This document shows, piece after piece, positions 11,247 through 54,157 of a stretch of 64,000 nucleotides of DNA. Made by a program: the position numbers and the translations under genes. The stretch is from Sclerotinia nivalis (lineage: Eukaryota; Ascomycota; Leotiomycetes; Helotiales; Sclerotiniaceae), in contig JAPEIS010000001.1 in NCBI GenBank assembly GCA_029531795.1, positions 7,998,001 to 8,062,000 on the forward strand, read 5' to 3'. Each line of letters begins with the position of its first letter. Position 1 is the first letter of the stretch. The notes under the pieces were generated by a model. The model was given only the letters and a program-made list of their open reading frames with translations, was not told where the DNA came from and searched no databases.

Positions 11247-11409
11247 TATTATGGTGAGGGAAAAGGTATGTGTAAGTTTGATCTATTGTTATACTACAAG
11301 GAGGAGAAGAAGATCAAGGAGGTGACCTGACTATATAGAAGTGAGTGTATACATGTGTGCCTAAGGCACACATGATCACGTGCAGGTGAAGGGAGATAAA
11401 CCCGTAACA
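11247..11409 (-). repeat. 163-bp LTR (5' LTR of inner element)
   Basis: This is the upstream LTR of the minus-strand element. It pairs with 4,658-4,820 and 1,104-1,266. The internal leader begins at 11,246 with GTTTGTACTACCC. I could not recognise a clear tRNA primer-binding site there. Confidence 0.88.
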
Positions 11410-42199: not shown

Positions 42200-43684
42200 A
42201 TGTCTTCCTCAAAGAAGATATTATTACCAGATTCTGAGAGAAGGTCTTCATTGAGAGCCCGAATTCCAAGAGCCTTTGAAAATAAAGAAGCATCAAAGTC
42301 CCCTCCAAAAGTCCCCAAGCCTCTGACTAAACGTCCCACTACAGCCACCGTTCCAACTGATCTCACGGTGGGAACCGCAGCAATGATTGGTACGGCTGGG
42401 ACGTACAGGTCAATTCTTCCGAGGCCAGAGGCGCCAGCCGTACTAAACAAACCTTTTAAAGCCACAGCCATTACATCTCCTTCTTTTTCTTCTTCTGTAC
42501 CTAGAAAGAAGATTAAACTTAACCACACTCCATTGTTTACACCAAGAAACAACATTACGCCCTCTACTCTATTTTCCGGTTTCCCAAAAGTTTTTCCTAC
42601 CGCAAGCCCTACTACAGAAAAGTCCCCAAAGGCCAAAGGCAAACAGATAGTTATTGGTTCAGCTACATCATTCAATCCTTCATCTTCAGCTAGTAATAGA
42701 TCTTCCAATCTAAACTACAAGTGTCAAAGCAAAAGCTCTCCCAAGGCGATCATGTTGCCTAAGTGGTTTAAAGTCCCTCCACCAAAGCATAGAAAGCGTA
42801 GGCGCGAGGAATTTGAAGAAGACGAATAGTAAGCATCTATTCTTCCTATATTTCGAATCACAGTACGTAACAGTTTTATAGTCAACCATTTGTAATTCGT
42901 GGTGGTCAACTCGGTGACAACGCCGAGTATACCTTCACCAAAGCCGATTTTGATACCATACTTGAGGTGGCACCCCACTTCAAGTCATACCTCGCTACCC
43001 CTGACTCCACTTCCATCAAAATTACCGGCTACTTTGGCTCATCCCTCAAAGTCCTAATCCAATGGCTAACCACCAATACACTTCAGTCACTTGAAGTTCA
43101 TAAGCCAGGAAGACGAGATGGGCAGTCCAGCTATCACTTTGTTGACACATATACTATGGCTAATACATTCCGTCTCTCTGCTATGTGCGATGAGCTGATG
43201 GATTTGGCTTTAAAGGAGCTTTGGGGTAGTGATGATGAAGAGGATGTTTTACCAGATATTCGGGACTTGTATACTGTTTACCAACGAACCAAACCTGGCA
43301 ATCCTTTGAGAAAGCTGTATATCGCTGTTTTTGAGTGAGTTCCCCTGTACTCCCTGTACTCCGCTTGTCACTTTTCAATTGACCATACACTGACAAGTAA
43401 ATAGCTGGCTCTTAACCTCTGACGAATGTAACCGGCTCCGGAGCAAATCCAAGATTTCCAGTCCCGACCTTTGGAATCTACTCAAGGGTTCTGGTCACGC
43501 TGGCGTAGATTATATTAACTACGCAAGAAGTCAAATGACCGATCGTGGAACATATGTTCATCCTCTTGATCCACGAAAATGGAATGCTTGTGAGTTGCAT
43601 CAGCATACGATTGATGAATTATGCCCTTGTTGGGAGAAGCGGGAGACTGCTCGTCGGACATATGAGGAGGGTCGCGTTCTTTGA
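42200..43684 (+). CDS. BTB/POZ-like protein with CxxHxHx5C tail (divergent member)
   Basis: Exons 42,200-42,828, 42,882-43,334 and 43,405-43,684 (453 residues), both introns phase 2. About 210 residues of basic, Ser/Pro/Thr-rich disorder end in KHRKRRREEFEEDE, which resembles a nuclear signal. A divergent BTB-like fold follows: FVIRGGQLGDNAEYTF, then FGSSLKVLIQWLTTNTLQS, then FVDTYTMANTFRLSAMCDEL, matching the position of 'YVLADKL..LMD' in its neighbours. The C terminus has HPLDPRKWNACELHQH and the tail motif C-E-L-H-Q-H-x5-C at 43,589-43,624. The tail and layout link it to the four BTB genes downstream, although its N terminus is unrelated. The exact role is unknown; BTB domains usually mediate protein pairing or Cullin-3 adaptor function. 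Confidence 0.75.
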
Positions 43685-44193
43685 TTGAAGGTGCGGCGCT
43701 CAGACAATTGGTAGTTTACGCATTCAAGGTGCTGCTCTGCTTTTAAGATATCATATAAGGAGAAGAATGGTTTTTACACATTAGGGAAGCATTTTTTGGT
43801 GCTTGTTGTGGACTCAGGAGGTTATGGTGATTAAGTGCTTTTTAAATCGCTCTCATAGTTAGTATGTTTACCACAATGATATATCTGATGATTCGTGCCT
43901 TCCATATCTTCCCCATGCGTTCCTCTTCTTTTCCATGAAACTGCCAATTCATCCATTGTTGATTCGAAATGTCGTTTTTAAACCAGGTGGGCACGCCCAA
44001 GTCTTACCAGACACATCAAAGTCCTCCGAAGTTTTGATCCTTCATTCTTACAACAAAATATCATTTTTCCCTTATCAAAATTTTTGGCTTGTCATATTGT
44101 AGCTCTTTCTTACAGGGTATTGCAATCTCTTATTATTCATATTTATCACATATCATCTCTTCTGGTACGAACAGGGAAGCGTGCCTGGAGAAC
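43685..44193. other. Intergenic gap in BTB cluster
   Basis: About 500 bp. Nothing but presumed 3' and 5' flanking sequence is seen. Confidence 0.4.
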
Positions 44194-44907
44194 ATGACTG
44201 GATCGTCGTCAAGAGCAGAAATCGGCTCCCAGAGCTCGGAGAGCCCAAGCCCAGGCAGTGAGGAGGCTTTATGCCATCCTAGATACAAAAATGATCAGAA
44301 TGTTCCGCCAACTGCTATCGACGATGGTCAGCTCGGAGTCGTCAACAAGAAACTACGACAAATTTCAGGGGAACCAAGCAATGAGGAGGAGAATGATGGG
44401 CCTGATAGTGAGCAGTTAGTTAATATATCGATAAATCCCCTATATAAATCATGGATTCTGACTGGAATATAAAGAGTTCCAATGAGGGTCTTTACCATTG
44501 GTTTTACGAAAGACGGCAAGACGTAAAAACCTTCGAGGCAAGAGTACTATCCTTTCTGCAGAAAAGGGACTGGTGGTTTGCTAATAGTAGAAGCACAGAT
44601 GACCGGAAGCCTCCTCTTCGATAGAATTCCAAAGTTATTAAATATCTATCGCGGCAGCATAAGTCCTTCTACAATTCTCAAAGTTGGATCGGAGCCTCCT
44701 GATTTTCAAGTCGACGGGAACTTGCTACCCTTGAAATCATTTGAATTGATATGGTGGTGGATAAACCACGAAGAAGTTCAAACATTCAATTGTTGTCAGC
44801 GCATAGGGCTTGTGAATGATTGGTGTACAGCGGTTCATGTTTCGGGTAAACATCGCTGCTTTACAGTAGGTAAGGCTATAATTTGGTGGTTTGACCACCC
44901 CGCATAA
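44194..44907 (+). pseudogene. Broken hypothetical coding sequence in BTB cluster
   Basis: Coding-like segments appear in successive frames. A Ser/Glu-rich start at 44,194 (MTGSSSRAEIGSQSSESPSP) runs to about 44,410. A stretch from 44,452 (MDSDWNIKSSNEGLYHWF) runs to 44,622. A third from 44,602 (LLFDRIPKLLNIYRG, VDGNLLPLKSFELIWWWINH) ends at 44,907. A GTTAGT donor exists near 44,412, but I could not find splice sites that join all three. It is either a multi-exon gene I failed to resolve or a decayed one. I recognise no domain, and the CxxHxHx5C tail is not present. Confidence 0.35.
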
Positions 44908-45255
44908 TATGTCACCGCCGACGCTAAAATATAGTGGTTAACCTTAACTAATATTAAGAGGTATATTTGCCCTCATTATCACTTCTCTAGGCTTTGACGG
45001 ACACAGATACGTATAACTTCTGTATCAGCAGATATTGAATAATGTTTTCAAATTAGCACTAGATGCAGTATGATGCGGATCATTATCCGAATAGATTCTG
45101 ATAAATTAGGTATTACTTCTGCTCAGCGAGATATAATTTAGTCAGATGAGTACAGTTGACCAAAGTTTCTATATTACTAAATATATCATACTAATGTACG
45201 GTTTTCAAAAGTATTACCATCATACAGCAGTGAGAAAAGACTCTGAAATAGGCAT
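44908..45255. other. Intergenic gap left of solo LTR
   Basis: AT-rich; no gene seen. It ends in the left copy of the GGCAT target duplication (45,251-45,255). Confidence 0.4.
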
Positions 45256-45389
45256 AGATACCGTACCAAAAAGGAGGCAGGTAACGTGACTTCAAAAGAG
45301 TCTATATAACCACTCCAACTCAATCTAGTTTAATAAAAAATGCGCAACTTCAACTTAATCATTTTGTAACCGTTTCCGTCGTGTTTACT
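45256..45389 (+). repeat. Solo LTR (134 bp) with GGCAT target duplication
   Basis: It runs from AGATACCGTACC to GTGTTTACT and aligns end to end with 15,576-15,708 in opposite orientation. It is flanked by GGCAT at 45,251-45,255 and 45,390-45,394. The direct repeat is GGCATAGA if the adjoining AGA is counted, so the ends are known only to within three bases. A TATATAA box is present at about 45,304. Differences from the other copy are almost all transitions. No internal retrotransposon sequence remains. Confidence 0.75.
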
Positions 45390-45758
45390 GGCATAGAAAA
45401 ACTCGTAATTTGAGAGATTTTGTAAGTGTAATAAGACGACCGTATAACTCATTATGGTTGCAATCTTGCCGCCTGAAGACCATAACAATCGCTAACCGTG
45501 CCAATCTTAGTATAAAAGGATCTCGCTCAGCCATTGCAATTATACGCATCTCAAGCAATAATTTTTCCTTCTCAATATTTAAAGGTCCCCTATCGACCAT
45601 TATAGGACATCCAGAATTTTTTACAACTAATCTTGTAAACAAGCTACGAAGAGACAACCTGAGAGTTTGAGGACAGCATTTTGTTCCTGTGAGGAAATCG
45701 TCGGTTTGGGATTGCAACAATCACAAAAGACAGTTATAACCAGCCTTGAAAAATCAAG
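45390..45758. other. Intergenic gap right of solo LTR
   Basis: Begins with the right GGCAT copy. Both strands have short open frames without recognisable content. The end is presumed promoter of the BTB gene at 45,759. Confidence 0.4.
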
Positions 45759-46539
45759 ATGGCTTCCCCATCAACATCGACATCATCGGTGGTGTCGCCA
45801 TTCCTCAGGTACACGCCCTACCTTATTACATAATTAATTAGTCTCTACATGGGCAATACTAACAGTCTTTAGTTTCATAGGTGTTGAAATGGTCGATCTA
45901 TACGTTGGTCCATCCAAGACGCATTATCGAGTGCACAAAGCATTTCTCTGCAGCAAAATCCCCTACTTCAACAAAATGTTCAACAGCAATTTTTCTGAGG
46001 CTCTCAGTAACTCCGCAACATTTCCTGAAGACTCAACTGAGGCCTTCGATATCTTGATTGAATGGCTGTACACTGGATCCCTCCGACCGTTGGAACTTAA
46101 CTTGTCCTCTCAAAAATGCAACTGGAATGTTTATAGTTTCTACATCCTTGTGGATAAATTATGCATGTCGGACCTCATGAATGAGACAATGGATTTCAAG
46201 CGGCGATTCGATTACGAAAACTCCAGGATCATGAGGTTTAATACCGCAAGAAACATTTGTGCATCCTCACCACAAGGCTCCAAACTTCGTCTATATGCCT
46301 TGAATTGTACCTGGCTATCTTTGTTTGTAGTTCAGGCATCTGATATTAGGTTTGATGAGCTCTTGAGTGTTGCTCTGTACAATGATTCTGATTTCTCCGA
46401 CGATTTTCTTACCATTTTCGAAGATAAAATTGGCGATCGGCGATGTGTAGAACCGAGAGTCGGGAATGATGGCCTTTATCATGTACACGGAAAAGGAATA
46501 AGCTGCAGCTGCCCACCAGATGCTAGGAAGGATGATTAG
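45759..46539 (+). CDS. BTB/POZ domain protein
   Basis: Exons 45,759-45,808 and 45,873-46,539 (238 residues), with a phase-2 intron right before the domain. The Ser/Thr-rich leader MASPSTSTSSVV is followed by the BTB core: VEMVDLYVGPSKTHYRVHKA, FLCSKIPYFNKMFNSNF, FPEDSTEAFDILIEWLYTG. Then comes YSFYILVDKLCMSDLMNETM, the usual end of fungal BTB proteins. The C-terminal tail reads G-L-Y-H-V-H-x5-C (46,471-46,506), so the first cysteine of the shared motif is a glycine here. No other domain is present, so it is probably a stand-alone dimerising or adaptor protein. Substrate or partner is unknown. Confidence 0.85.
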
Positions 46540-47843
46540 AAGACAAAGATTACTGATACTCAGTGCTAATGGGCATGCTTAGTCCAGTAGCCAAGAATTG
46601 GAGTGGGCATGGTGGACAGAAAGCTTCTCCAACTTTGAATTGCATAAAAAAGTCTCATATCACTCAGCATTGCATTCAAAATAGTACTTAGCTTTAGCTT
46701 TCAATTCATATACTTTTCAACGACTACAGAACCTACAGGCAGGATACCCTACATCATAGATCTGGGATGCTATATTATATCCTAAAAAGAACCTGAAACG
46801 CGGATTCCAGATCAGAGTCTAGCATTTTCGTAACTATCAGGCTGGAACATCACTGGAGTACTTTCAATCTATGGGCTCTACGTAAGTGACCAATAAGGGG
46901 CCCTCGATATCAGCCATCGTAACACGGGTATTTACCAATAAAACACTGAAGATATTGAGATCTTTCAACCCAATTAATTCACTCGTTGGGCTAATTTATC
47001 TTTGAAATGTGATGACTAAATCCTCACAGTTCATTATGTGGATCGCCTGATACGTAAGTTAATCGAAACTTCTTCCTTATTGTGAGAAAGTTGGATTACT
47101 AAGGCCACATATGTAGCTAGTTCATAGACATTAGATTATATGATCCTTCGTAATTAAATATAAGGAAAAGACTTCGCTTTCCTTTCTAGAATAATCAATC
47201 GTTTTCATTAGTTTTTTTTATATTTACTATATATAATCCCAATCCATTATTAATTCCATTAATTCTACTATTCGAAGTTTATACAATGTAATCTGATCAG
47301 TTCGTATCCTATTCCCCTTTGCAGCGTACTATTGAGACGTACGTATCTCGATCTACCTCTTTCACACTATGAACCCAGCCAGTACAACATCGACTGTAAA
47401 GTCATCCTCAAATATTACACACGACACTCAACCACTGCAAAGTGCATGAACGAAAGTCACAAGGTGAGAGCTTACACGGAGGAGCAGCTAATGAGCAGTT
47501 CTTACGACGCCGATGGCATATTACTATGGTACACAGCTGTGTGACATAACCTAGGTCCACATTACTCTGCTGTATCAAGGCTCTCCTGTATATAAGGACC
47601 TTTTCTTCAAGCTCCATGTAATTATATACATCTGATTCATCGTAATAACAACCCACGCATTCGTGTCGAGCAAACTTGATAAGTGACTTTAGGACTCTCT
47701 CTGACAGGAAACACTTTCATAGCAAGATTGATAGTGTCGAGATTAAATTCGTAAGTTGAAAATCTCCAATAGGCACTCGAAATAGTCCCCGACATTCCAC
47801 TTTCTACAGCAGAGCATTTGACGTTCGAGAACCTATAACAGCA
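46540..47843. other. Intergenic, no supported gene
   Basis: About 1.3 kb between two BTB paralogues. Small frames at 47,332-47,656 overlap on both strands and show no family resemblance. AT-rich around 47,200-47,280. Confidence 0.45.
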
Positions 47844-48651
47844 ATGGATTACAGATCCGCACTGAGCACGATAGTAGATCTTTCCTTCCGAGAGTATGTA
47901 TCATCGTACTATTTTCTCTAGCTGCGAAAAAGAGGGAGCTTAGAGATCTGATATAATTTTTAGGAGAACGGGAGTCGAAATGGTTGATTTGTATGTGGGT
48001 CCCAAGAAAGCTCATTTTCGGGTACACAAAACAATTTTGTGTGAAAAGATCCCATACTTCAAAAAGTTATTCAAGAGTAACGGATTCATTGAAGGTTCAG
48101 AAAATGTGGCAAATTTCCCTGAAAAAGAAGTTCAATCCTTTGATATTTTGATAGAATGGGTGTGTACTGGAGCGTTAAGTTCATCGCTCTTCGGGGATCC
48201 TACAGTAAAGAATGATCTTTGGTCTACCCCGTGCTTCTTTCGATTGACAGAAAAGTTATGTTTACCTGAAGTCATAGATACGGTCATGGATCTGTGACGA
48301 AAGTATCAAAGAGATAAACATACACTCATGGCAATATCAGATATCCTTCAGGCTTTTAATCAGTTACCCAAAAGATCACCATATCGTCTCTATGCTTTGC
48401 ACTCTTTCATGTTCTTATTCTACTTCACGGGTGATGATTCGCGGAAAATCTGGACTACGGCCGCAATGTTGGATGCAGTAAGGGAGGAATCTGACCTCGG
48501 CCAAGAATTTTTTGATCTTTTGAAAAATCAAGTCAACAACGGTATGCCCAAAGACCCAAGAATCGGGGATGATTGCCTTTACCATTGCCATGAAGCGGGC
48601 GAAGAGTGTCTGGTGAAAGAAAAGAAGGAAGATGGTAATTCAAAAGTCTAA
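47844..48651 (+). pseudogene. BTB/POZ paralogue with in-frame TGA
   Basis: Exon 1 is 47,844-47,893 (50 nt, phase 2, the same length as in the neighbour at 45,759). Exon 2 starts at 47,964. The BTB core is intact: VEMVDLYVGPKKAHFRVHKT, ILCEKIPYFKKLFKSN, FPEKEVQSFDILIEWVCTG. After FRLTEKLCLPEVIDTVMDL a TGA (48,295-48,297) stops the frame. The same frame continues for 117 codons through SPYRLYALHSFMFLFYF to the tail motif C-L-Y-H-C-H-x5-C (48,574-48,609) and stop at 48,651. Without suppression the product would be a BTB domain alone of about 128 residues. The base after TGA is C, but the known CUA readthrough context is absent. Confidence 0.75.
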
Positions 48652-51207
48652 TTTGGATCCTATTTACGCCATGGATATTTCGATTCTGACATATAATAGA
48701 GGATGGATTAGCGCAGATAGTGGGTAGGGAGGGGTTTGGCTTCATGCAACAGATCCGGTGTTACGAGGAGTTGCACAGTACTAACCTCATTTAATTCTAC
48801 TTGCCTTTCGTTGCCCTTTGATATAGTGCCAAACTGAGACTTACGTGCATGAAAAACATTATCTTATTTTGCGTTTTCGATTGTTGATTTCAGAGGTATA
48901 ATGCATTTGGCGAGGTACCCTCACGATCTATTTATTCTCCGCATGCGAAATTAGAATCTCTTTCATTGTTGAAAGGCTTTATGGATAGCAAACTCTCTGC
49001 CGAACTCAAGAGACCCGTGTGCCAGGAGTCTCCCCTGAGATTAAGCGATAATGGCTTACGTAAATCCTGAACGTCTACTTTAAAGAAATTATGTGAAGAC
49101 TAGTGCTCTGTGATAGCTAAAGTATCCTCAAAGAATAGTATTGGTTTTTCTTACGGACGCATTTTTATTTCTTTCCGGTTGCAAGAGATGGTGCTGGTTT
49201 TTTGCCAAGCTAAGATTCGTACCGGTGATTATTTCTTGGCAAACCTAATCAAGTCGTGAATAGGAATTTAAAGATATGTTAATTCTTATATGACATGATA
49301 AGTGGTTTATAAATCATGAGTAACTGTTGTGGCTCTTATATTTGACTATCCCAACAATGGCATTCACCTCTCGGATTTTGTTTTTCAGTGCTTTCAGAGA
49401 ATGTATCCCGTGTATGGATACCATCTTCCGATTTAGCCAGGAAGGTTATTTACAGAGTAGTTTCCTGAGTACATGAAGACTATCCTAGCGAATGAATTCA
49501 TGACACTTAAGTATTGAGAAATTTAACGGTCGTAAGATTCGTTAAATAATATAGGCCAGCATTGCCGCCAAATCACTAACACTCTATCATCACCGTCACC
49601 GTCATCTTACTGTCATTATCGTCAACGACAACATAGACATAACCATACCCCGAGAAGCAGTAACAAACACTACTTAATAATAAAACAACCGAACCATTAA
49701 TTCTAATCTGACATGAGTACCTCCCTCGTCTACGATTGAGAGCTCAATGATTGTAGCCGTAGTAAACTGACATCCAATCCCGCACACAGCCCTAAACTCC
49801 ACCCCGGAGTATTGTAATCTCTTTGATTCCTCAAGATTGCCGGCTTGACCCCGTATTTAAATGGATGTCGAAAGTGATCAAACCGTATTGAGATGGCTAG
49901 AGTGAATTATTATACCAATGACAAACTAGTGCGTGGATTCAATCCACATTTCTGTCTCGAGATTCGTGTGTCAGATTTCGCTCTTTCCAGTAAACCTCAA
50001 AATTCATAAGTGCAGGCTATAAAACTGCACAAAGAACTATGTCTCTGCCCAAGCAAATAACGAACATCATTCAAAAACAAGTAAATGCCTCTTTAGAAAC
50101 GGGATATGTTCTTCGAACATGAAGGAAGAATAAAATCGACGTTCTGCCGTATGTGCCCTGACAGAATCGCCATCTGGCAGACTTTTATCACCTCTTCAGA
50201 TGTAATTATTATGCTAAAGTAGACAGTAATCAATGTAACGATGGCCGTGGTGATGATGATAATAACAATAATATATGCGACAGCTATACATGAAACCATT
50301 AATCAGCACAACTCCCCAATTTACTCTACTGTACCAAGGTGAAAGTGGGCAATGCAGAGCTTTATCCATCATTAAATTGTAATGAAGTTAATTTGGTTTC
50401 TTTTTATGAATGACCGAACTGGAAAATTATCAAACTATCTTACAAGCAATAAAAATCAACGCCCGTTTCCTAAATGACATCTGATCTCGATGATCTGGTA
50501 GTAACAATTACAAAACGAATACAAAAATTTGAAGGAATATCAATAATCAAGAATAAATCATGATAGTAAAAATAGCAATATCAAAAGTTTGATAGAGATG
50601 GAAGAATAATGAAAACAACCAGAAGATGATTTGATCATCAACTAGTATATCGTACCCAATGTCGCTCTAAGACTATTTTGGGTTGAAGGAATTTGGTAAA
50701 GGAATCCTTACATAAGGACAATCATATTGGGTTTTATAGTAAGGCAGGGGGGATGCGGGGTTCTTGGGAGCTTCTATAGAGAGATGCTATCGAGAAGTTT
50801 GGGTGCTGGGGCAATTTGCTGAAAAGATGGCTTCGTGAGCAGTTTAATCAAGAAGTAGATATTCATCCATATCATTATACAACATTTGTAGTGAACTCAA
50901 TGTCTGCTATCCTGGGAGTTTTAATAGAAGCAGTGATTGATTTCAAGAATGAAGAAACCGTTATTGGGAACTCTGGTCTGTTGAATGAAAACACAGCTAC
51001 GAAGAATGCATCATGATTGGAAACATTGTAATACCATAGCTATATTCTATGCTAATCTACCTGCGCAAAATTTTGTTGCACCGTCTTCACGGATGTAGGG
51101 AATCAAGCTGTACCACCAGCAATCAGGAGATATGCAGCGATTGAGTATCTCCAGGGGCATGTAAAAGATCGGCCTGACATCTAGTAGGCACCACTCGTCT
51201 CGTAATC
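48652..51207. other. Long intergenic stretch in BTB cluster
   Basis: About 2.5 kb with no supported gene. It has only small frames (for example 50,093-50,299 and 50,816-51,016) and ATC/GTC-type low-complexity sequence near 49,585-49,625 and 50,250-50,275. Confidence 0.45.
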
Positions 51208-52095
51208 CTAAGGTAAAATCTTAGGCTTTTGGGTGCAAGGCTCGTCCTTTCCATGGCAGTGAAAATCGCATTTTGGTAGCTTGGTTGGATCTTTGGCGGC
51301 AATACCGACAGGATTCGATCTCAACAAGTTCAGAAAGTCTATTGCAAAATCCGGGTGGGATTTCATAACCATTGCCACTCCGTCTGTGGTCCAAGTAGCC
51401 TCAATTCTCTCTGAGCGAAGGGTAGAAAAGACATAATACATGCTGTGACACATGAATTTTCGAAGAGGTGAACCCATTGGTGTGAGCTCGTACACCTTCT
51501 CAACCCACTCGGTTTTCGGGATCCTGCCCGACTTCGCAAGTCCCTCAAAGTAAATATCAGAGCTTTTATCCATAAGTTCAACCAAACAGAGCTTATCTGC
51601 AAGAAAATACAGAAGTAACGGGTTCCAGTTAAATCCAGACTCCCCGCCTCCGTCCACGCAATTGAAGGTTGGCAATGTACCAAGATATACCCAACCATAG
51701 AAAAGATCGAAACTCTGTGGAGAATCTTCTGGAAAGAATACTTTGCCCTCAAGAGCCTCGACGAAGCCACTTGAAAACATCTTCTGGAAATATGGAACCT
51801 TGTCACAAAGTATACCTCGATGGATTCGGAAAAGTTTCTTCTCTGGACCCACATAAATATCGACCGTTTCCGTTCCCGTTATCCTTACAAATTGTTAGAA
51901 AGGTACCATTTGAATTTGAGAAGAAACAATAACTTACTCGATAAAGTCAGGAGTTTCTCCTCGGGACCGCTTCAAGGAGACGGCATCAGCTCTTTTCTGT
52001 TCTGCTATATCCCGATTTCTTTTCGCTTCTGCTAGGGCACCCCTTTCGTCCCCAATACTTACACAACTTTCTGCATTTTCACCTTCTGCAATCAT
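51208..52095 (-). CDS. BTB/POZ domain protein with CxxHxHx5C tail
   Basis: Minus-strand exons 52,095-51,938 and 51,883-51,208 (277 residues); the intron is GTAAGT...TTTGTAAG, phase 2. An Ala/Glu/Lys-rich leader (GALAEAKRNRDIAEQKRADA) precedes the junction PDFIEITGTETVDIYVGP. The BTB core includes KLFRIHRGILCDKVPYFQKM, FPEDSPQSFDLFYGWVYLG and LLYFLADKLCLVELMDKSSD. The tail reads C-D-F-H-C-H-x5-C (51,235-51,270). The coding frame stays open upstream of the chosen ATG to about 52,235 without another Met, so a further upstream exon may add residues. It is the only member of the cluster on the minus strand. Confidence 0.83.
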
Positions 52096-53134
52096 TTGCC
52101 TTTCAACCGCAGTGTCCTTTTGATTTTCTGTCTTGATCAGAGCTGTGGAGTCTGCTGCCGCTTTTTCTTGCTTTCCTCCAGCCGTAGCCAGATTGCTATG
52201 CTTAACAGTATGTGTTGATATGGCAAGTGAACTAAATCGTTCTCAGTCGATAAAAGTATTGATCTTTAATTGGGTTGAAAATCCTGAATGATCGAAATAC
52301 TCCGCGCGATGTAATGCTTTGAAGGTATGTTGGTGCAGAGTTCAGAACCATATATGATTGTTCAAGGTGGGTAGCTTATATATATGATCAATGTATGAAG
52401 AATAAAATTATGAGAAAGCTATGCTACTGAAGAAGTGTAGTGCTACCGTATAAACTAGCACTGTTGTGGGGCTAGTATGGCTAGCACGTGTTTCTAGCAA
52501 AATAATGAAATTTATTTCAGAATGAATCGACGACGTAATTCCCAGGATTCGAAAGGTAATCGGTATTAGGCAGGCTAGCAGGGATGCTAGAAATGCCATG
52601 ATGTGGTGCCGGGGCGGGCGTCCGATACCATGAGTAATTCACTACAAATAATTGATGACAAACCTCCATCAGTTCCGAATACCTCTTCGGTGTCGTGTAG
52701 CTGCGATATCCTGGCTTTTGGCAAAAGCTCGCTAAGGTTTCATGTACTGAGCTGCAATTGTCGTGCTTGATGTCCAAATGCTTGACTATCTGAGGAAGCG
52801 CGGTTGTCCGACTGATTTCATAACGATCAATCTCACTGGAACGCTCTGATGGTTAGTAAAGCCGGGGGTCACCCTCTTATCTTCCAGTCATAATAGCGTT
52901 GGTATAAGTAATTGCGCTCAGGGAATCTGAACAATTCACTGTACTGACAACCAATTTCGACGGTGACATGATGGAACATTCCATTCCAGCCAAACAAAAA
53001 GAAAAATGTCGGCTAAAATTGAGAAGTACGCTTGTGAGTATTCGGTTTCGCAATTGCTGTGTTGACCATCTCGTTAGTTCTGTTTCCTTAACTCAAAGCA
53101 ACCACCAACCCTTTCTCAAAACATCAAGAACAAG
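52096..53134. other. Divergent intergenic region between two BTB genes
   Basis: About 1 kb between start codons of the minus-strand and plus-strand BTB genes. The minus-strand frame remains open to about 52,235. Beyond that I see no gene; an 86-codon frame at 52,517-52,777 has no recognisable family. Confidence 0.45.
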
Positions 53135-54032
53135 ATGGCCTGGATGCGGATTTTCAAAAGAAAGCAGAAGTTACCTAAAGTCGGGGAGGCTCCTGCAATT
53201 CAAGTTAGTATCGCAAAGGCATCCGCAGCGAAGAAAGACAGCAAAACGGTATCTGAAGTTGAACAGTTAGTAGACGCCATTCCATCTTGTGTAAACTTCT
53301 AATTCTCATAACACCAAAGATTTGCAGGAGCAACCATGGTCGACATCCATGTCGGAACAGATGAAAACTCAGCTCACTTCAAGCTTCATAAGTCAATTCT
53401 CTGCACGAAGGTGCCATACTTTGAAAAGATGTTCAATAGAAGGTTCTTGGAAGGCACGACGAATTCTGCAACCCTACCCGAAGATGATCCGGAACTATTC
53501 AATATACTCGTTTCCGTAAGTTAAATTCTCTCAAATTGGTACTGAGCCAGACCCGTTCCTTCTCACTTCTGGAACAAATCTCTGCATTAGCCATGGTATT
53601 GCTGGTACATCATGCCATCAATAGAACGGAATTTGTGTTCTTTATTTCATCAATTTGATTTAACATACTGACAGCTTCCACATGTAGTGGATCTACTCAG
53701 GCCAGATACCTGCCTTACATAACCGTCCCGAAGACGACTTAGAGTGGTTGGCTTGGGATTTTTACGTCCTGGCTGACGAGTTCTATCTTCCAGACCTAAT
53801 GGACCAAACATTGGATGTATGCCTTATCTCCATGAGCAAGGGTAATTGGATGCCTAGGGTAGGCGTTTTGCAACGCATGCATGATTGCTCTATCCGCAAA
53901 TCCAGTGGCATGTTCCGACTCGTAGCCGCTTTCGTATGCTACATCTTGTGCACATATCGAGCTACGAAGGATGAAGAGGACTGGCCGACGCGGGAACTAC
54001 ACACGATTCTTGGTAACAATGAAGATCTTTAG
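53135..54032 (+). CDS. BTB/POZ domain protein, C-terminally truncated by frameshift
   Basis: Exons 53,135-53,265, 53,320-53,515 and 53,688-54,032 (223 residues). Intron 1 is phase 2 at the same place as in the paralogues. A second, phase-0 intron splits the BTB core between NILVS and WIYSG and is unique to this copy. The leader is basic (MAWMRIFKRKQKLPKVGEAP). The core reads ATMVDIHVGTDENSAHFKLH, ILCTKVPYFEKMFNRRFLEG and FYVLADEFYLPDLMDQTLDV. It ends at LGNNEDL, before the family tail. The tail itself survives out of frame just downstream. The protein as read therefore lacks the CxxHxHx5C region. Confidence 0.75.
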
Positions 54033-54157
54033 ACTCCAGGTTTGCGAGACACTCAGCACACCCTAGGGGAACATTGTTCATTGATCCTATTGTGGGTCCA
54101 TCCTGCGACTTTCACGAGCACGCAATGACGGATCCTTGTCCTCAAGCGATGAAGTAG
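54033..54157 (+). pseudogene. Out-of-frame BTB family tail
   Basis: In the +2 frame relative to the preceding exon the sequence reads FIDPIVGPSCDFHEHAMTDP and ends CPQAMK at a TAG (54,155-54,157). It contains the motif C-D-F-H-E-H-x5-C (54,104-54,139) seen at the end of the other cluster members. That frame is open back to about 54,023. A small indel near 54,010-54,030 or a sequencing error would explain it. Confidence 0.65.

Follow-up and report, generated by a model that had tools for sequence, protein, structure and literature searches.

The window, a 64,000-nucleotide stretch of the Sclerotinia nivalis genome (50.3 Mb) at positions 7,998,001-8,062,000 of contig C1, held a cluster of five BTB or BTB-like genes, each associated with a short block rich in Cys and His at its C-terminal end. 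We take this tail to be a family-wide, unnamed C-terminal Cys-His-His-Cys (CHHC) motif of at least two classes of filamentous ascomycetes. A first-pass annotation had placed five blocks of the form [CG]-x-[LYF]-H-x-H-x5-C in the window, and a pattern scan recovered all five at the same positions and with the same spacing:

43589-43624, plus strand: tail motif copy 1, CELHQHTIDELC, gene 1
46471-46506, plus strand: tail motif copy 2, GLYHVHGKGISC, gene 2, with G in place of the first C
48574-48609, plus strand: tail motif copy 3, CLYHCHEAGEEC, gene 3
51235-51270, minus strand: tail motif copy 4, CDFHCHGKDEPC, gene 4
54104-54139, plus strand: tail motif copy 5, CDFHEHAMTDPC, gene 5, in a frame that differs from that of the preceding part

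The stricter CxxHxHx5C, under which the blocks had been announced, held in four of the five copies, the exception being the Gly of copy 2. The residues around the block had been described as diverged, yet [D/E]P preceded it in 5/5 copies, so the shared block is longer than was noted. A chance origin of the five blocks was rejected because the Markov expectation was far lower, at 0.067 strict CxxHxHx5C matches per window (0.05 for the first-pass pattern; 60 first-order Markov sequences). Neither the first-pass pattern nor a looser tail pattern had further matches on either strand of the window; the still looser [FLYW]HxHx(3-8)C matched 11 times, comprising the five copies and 6 others, with 2.4 expected.

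All five genes had been called BTB genes, which stood for genes 2, 3, 4 and 5, each above the Pfam PF00651 cut-off of 20.5 bits; gene 1 had no Pfam BTB match and was instead found by the family profile. The parts of the genes, with the open reading frames (ORFs) in which they lay, were as follows:

42200-42829, plus strand: gene 1, Ser/Pro/Lys-rich ORF of 209 amino acids, probably the N-terminal exon
42871-43338, plus strand: gene 1, diverged BTB/BACK-like exon (no Pfam match; family profile A2, E 3e-10)
43394-43684, plus strand: gene 1, tail exon (family profile, E 1.7e-5; tail profile, E 2e-7)
45889-46539, plus strand: gene 2, BTB, BACK-like part and tail in a single ORF of 216 amino acids (PF00651, E 1.5e-11, in the stop-to-stop frame from 45838)
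47944-48297, plus strand: gene 3, BTB part, ending at an in-frame TGA at 48295-48297 (PF00651, E 4.4e-9)
48298-48651, plus strand: gene 3, BACK-like part and tail in the same frame past the TGA (family profile, E 8.2e-19)
51208-51894, minus strand: gene 4, main exon with BTB, BACK-like part and tail (PF00651, E 3.9e-5)
51934-52242, minus strand: gene 4, ORF with the N-terminal exon (by eye, its end aligns with the N-terminal residues of P0001)
53312-53524, plus strand: gene 5, BTB exon (PF00651, E 1.1e-6)
53688-54032, plus strand: gene 5, BACK-like part, ending at a TAG at 54030-54032 (family profile, E 1.2e-12)

The ORF with the gene 5 tail matched the family profile at E 4.6e-6. Outside the five genes, the best window ORF against this profile reached only E 0.28 and was gene 4's own N-terminal exon (51937-52242, minus strand). 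Gene 4 was 99% identical to P0001 (Sclerotinia nivalis OCU04_002248), and in gene 1 an intron probably joins the Ser/Pro/Lys-rich ORF to the next exon. The TGA of gene 3, and the TAG and change of frame in gene 5, are signs of decay or of unannotated introns; the gene 5 tail would either be spliced onto the BACK-like part or belong to a broken gene. Because of the in-frame TGA in gene 3 and the frame change before the tail in gene 5, at least one of the five copies, perhaps two, appears to be decaying. Genes 2-5 were clearly related (gene 2 and gene 4 shared 31% identity over 218 amino acids), and we infer that the cluster is a tandem array with birth and death of copies.

Conservation of the tail was evaluated in homologues of gene 4, a search with which gave 25 proteins, followed by a 16-member profile that gave 598 homologues, 120 of them listed. 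Among the 129 distinct homologues retrieved (gene 4 included), 121 carried the motif in their C-terminal half, a proportion biased upward because the queries contained the tail. The sampled breadth covered Leotiomycetes and Dothideomycetes, classes assigned from the named matches, and many rows were unnamed metagenome proteins. Exactly five residues preceded the last Cys in 119 of the 121 motif-bearing homologues, and the residue before the first His was Phe or Tyr in 119/119. Whether the His and Cys positions are the most conserved of the family had been put forward as a check, and they ranked among the most conserved: in an alignment of 123 homologues H261, H263 and C269 were invariant, as were F111 and Y119, and C258 was conserved at 98% by weight, while by relative entropy C269 ranked 2nd, C258 4th, H263 6th and H261 7th of 277 positions. 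The DP and an aromatic residue next to the motif were also conserved, and the same motif recurred in other species at ~25% identity. As a control, ten own-genome paralogues, chosen for having the tail, were cut before it and used as queries; they gave 6 matches, 6/6 with a tail, a weak control because 5/6 were the query paralogues or close relatives, the sole independent tail-bearing match being P0135 (CSYHEHEGASC). Co-conservation of the tail with BTB domains across species, suggested in the first-pass annotation as support, was thus found both among the 129 homologues and in the matches to tail-less queries.

Across the genome, 14 of 35 PF00651 matches had a Cx[FYL]HxHx(4-7)C tail behind them, 4 in the window and 10 outside it, a count that includes gene 2, with Gly for the first Cys, and one copy in which the first Cys is followed by one residue more. 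All ten outside tails shared an ORF with their BTB match, one of these ORFs having an inner stop. Dropped before the count were a strict match near C4:1427274, which lay among stop codons, loose matches near C4:1960383/1959723 and near C9:315887, two further ones behind C11:1006007, and three overlapping loose matches on the minus strand of the window. The 25 outside stretches around BTB matches (128,824 bases) held 11 loose-pattern matches in total; the 11th, in L018, fitted no BTB reading frame and was treated as chance. Since the same tail also occurs on further contigs and in further species, a feature confined to the cluster is rejected; the five copies belong to a dispersed family and are not cluster-specific. 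Two of the outside loci had peculiarities of their own. L013 (C1:453807-454109) is a BTB gene with an inner stop in which the tail motif CYFHRHPEGEIC is still intact, and L020 (C5:220803-221027) has a long LQP/HP-rich repeat stretch between the BTB part and the tail. At C7:451069, 2 kb from the tail-bearing C7:448839, lay a BTB gene whose ORF had no motif.

The earlier statement that the tail is not a named domain was upheld, with no convincing match for the tail in Pfam or PDB sequences and none for whole proteins in NCBIfam. The tail profile gave five matches to PDB sequences at E up to 10, the best at E 0.33 (Sas5), and the 14 tails searched against Pfam gave a single match, Cnd1_N at E 0.04 in 1/14, all of which were taken as chance; seven whole proteins searched against NCBIfam gave nothing near the cut-off. 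Source names among the listed homologues were of the 'hypothetical', 'uncharacterized', 'BTB domain-containing' and 'BTB/POZ-like' kinds. Among the papers listed by searches aimed at this family or motif, no title or abstract opening names such a tail, and the BTB passages of PMC11412873 and PMC5987419 consist of table entries, on an expanded BTB gene family and on BTB/POZ transcripts.

AlphaFold2 predicted a BTB domain and a BACK-like bundle whose closest fold was that of SPOP. The tail was at least partly ordered in the predictions, x-C-x-[FY] forming a short turn in two lineages, and in two models the tail sat after the last BACK-like helix (residues 258-269 in P0001). In the fold comparison only residues 41-248 were covered by at least 1/5 of rows, so that the tail was barely tested; a few Kelch rows reached 255-277, with ranges extending into the Kelch part, whereas NPR1 rows ran no further than model residues 245-248 and KEAP1 rows reached 207 at most, neither being aligned with the tail.

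Conserved Cys and His residues at fixed spacing, among residues that vary more freely, are the usual signature of metal ligands and not of packing. The small metal knuckle appended to BTB proteins that the first-pass annotation proposed is the best-supported explanation of these results, and we think it probable that the 12 residues of the tail form a CHHC metal knuckle that closes the C terminus of a BTB and BACK-like protein of filamentous ascomycetes, zinc being the likeliest metal. The first Cys would lie on the predicted turn and the first His just past it; the loop would be closed by the second His and the last Cys, and a single Zn2+ would be held by all four. Such a knuckle could fasten the C terminus to the helical bundle, at the end that bears the substrate-binding propeller in Kelch proteins, and may there offer a small rigid contact surface. 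In the window genes only, BTB dimers with the CUL3-contacting phi-x-E motif could bind CUL3 as adaptors for substrates; the tail is kept independently of that motif.

CUL3 docking is plausible for this cluster. Of four cullin matches in the genome, three were long and one short; the best PDB matches of C7:363383 identified it as CUL3 (414.9 bits, vs 271.2 for CUL4B), and the other two long cullins were CUL1 and CUL4. The phi-x-E motif contacts CUL3 in solved complexes (PMC3616122), and PMC2785787 tabulates a Cul3-BTB complex for S. pombe and has a Cul3 group in Pezizomycotina. At the aligned place genes 2-5 read FSE, FIE, FVE and FLE, giving phi-x-E in 4/4 window genes with a Pfam BTB match. 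The motif was at the expected offset in 15/17 Leotiomycete-like rows, a label that, like Dothideomycete-like, rests on the classes of the named matches; the other two rows were N-terminally truncated (P0014, FVE; P0011, FVK).

Several observations weigh against the metal knuckle or against a general CUL3 role. The motif was missing from 8 of the 129 homologues (P0010, P0011, P0013, P0016, P0019, P0021, P0025 and P0074); besides P0011, seven had no tail, several of which stop short or seem misannotated, and the source record of P0074 labels it partial. The first Cys was replaced by Ser in P0011 and by Gly in window gene 2, with no other such replacement among block-bearing sequences. Within the own genome, the spacer before the last Cys ranged from 4 to 7 among paralogues, one paralogue had an extra residue between the first Cys and the first His, and no tail was found for 21 of the 35 BTB matches, a search in which more distant exons would be missed. 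For the last Cys in the second lineage the block predicted local distance difference test score (pLDDT) was only 66. The phi-x-E motif was present in 5/10 own paralogues and in 0/106 Dothideomycete-like rows. Since none of these 106 relatives keeps phi-x-E, the tail does not seem tied to CUL3 binding, and CUL3 docking for the whole family is doubtful. When compared by eye, one of the tail-less homologues, P0025 from Sclerotinia sclerotiorum, matched gene 4 in two different frames, that of the BTB part and another one, as if its gene were broken or misannotated.

The alternative that survives best, though we regard it as unlikely, is a metal-free structural or partner-binding motif, in which the four residues would pack on the BACK-like bundle or on a partner. 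It would account for metal-free predictions in which the first half of the tail has fair to high confidence, and for the conserved aromatic and DP beside the motif, but Cys and His at fixed spacing are typical of metal ligands and replacement of the first Cys was confined to P0011 and gene 2. By analogy with BTB proteins under redox control, such as KEAP1 and NPR1, the two Cys and two His might instead form a redox or metal-sensing switch that holds zinc or another metal when reduced and releases it on oxidation, altering what the BTB dimer binds. We give this little weight, as neither metal release nor a disulphide is evident in these data, and the rows of neither model protein aligned with the tail. 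A site of this kind would in any case differ from that of plant NPR1, which has ankyrin repeats and a C-x4-C-x-H-x2-C zinc site between BTB and BACK, whereas the CHHC tail follows the bundle (P0001 residues 258-269); unlike NPR1, none of the eight window pieces had an ankyrin match in the Pfam scan. The available passages of PMC9360754 do not describe the NPR1 zinc site.

Many Dothideomycete-like relatives had K/G-rich ends (e.g. KGKGK) after the tail, which would suit a nucleic-acid-binding knuckle in which the tail and Lys-rich residues bind RNA or DNA as retroviral-type zinc knuckles do. This seems quite improbable to us: the zf-CCHC knuckle, Cx2Cx4Hx4C, is also a very short four-ligand loop, but ligand order and spacing here are C-x2-H-x-H-x5-C and 0/14 tails matched zf-CCHC in Pfam; the window genes had no K/G run, and the end past the motif was of low confidence in the P0042 model (block pLDDT 48-66). 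That chance or recent duplication made the five blocks alike can be dismissed, the relatedness of genes 2-5 notwithstanding, in view of the motif's presence on other contigs and in distant species, its frequency among the homologues and the conservation ranks of its His and Cys.

Like the CUL3 adaptors SPOP and KLHL/KBTBD, the window genes had a BTB domain followed by BACK-like helical hairpins. They differ in that the Pfam scan of the window pieces found neither MATH nor Kelch, that the protein stops within the CHHC tail or shortly beyond it, and that phi-x-E is missing from the 106 Dothideomycete-like relatives. Like ZBTB transcription factors, they would pair BTB with a zinc part on the C-terminal side (here presumed), whereas the Pfam scan found no C2H2 finger and the tail is a single loop of 12 residues that follows BACK-like helices. 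An unnamed, near-invariant motif of metal type marks 14 of 35 BTB matches in one genome and most of the wider family, and offers a handle for defining that family and for separating intact from decaying copies. If the proteins were true CUL3 adaptors, they would be ubiquitin-ligase receptors whose sole addition to BTB-BACK is a metal loop.

Contig C1 had telomere repeats at both ends, CCCTAA at its start and TTAGGG at the other, and the cluster lay ~76-88 kb from the right end. With neighbours merged, 7/9 tail-bearing loci lay no more than 500 kb from a contig end, where 34% would be expected (p 0.009), an enrichment that is weak because C7:451069, which adjoins a tail locus, was left out and the expectation was drawn only from the 12 BTB-bearing contigs; for BTB loci without a tail the figure was 8/17 (p 0.18). 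We tentatively raise, as an unlikely extension, that minimal BTB adaptors are widespread in filamentous ascomycetes, in which the CHHC loop would replace the substrate domain, sense metal or redox state and gate recruitment, with birth-and-death expansion near chromosome ends. Apart from the cluster, two near-identical short peptides, CYGFISLHLHVI.CAL.TH.Y.HF, were encoded on the minus strand of the window at 1225-1248 and 11368-11391, ~10 kb apart, which suggests a dispersed repeat.

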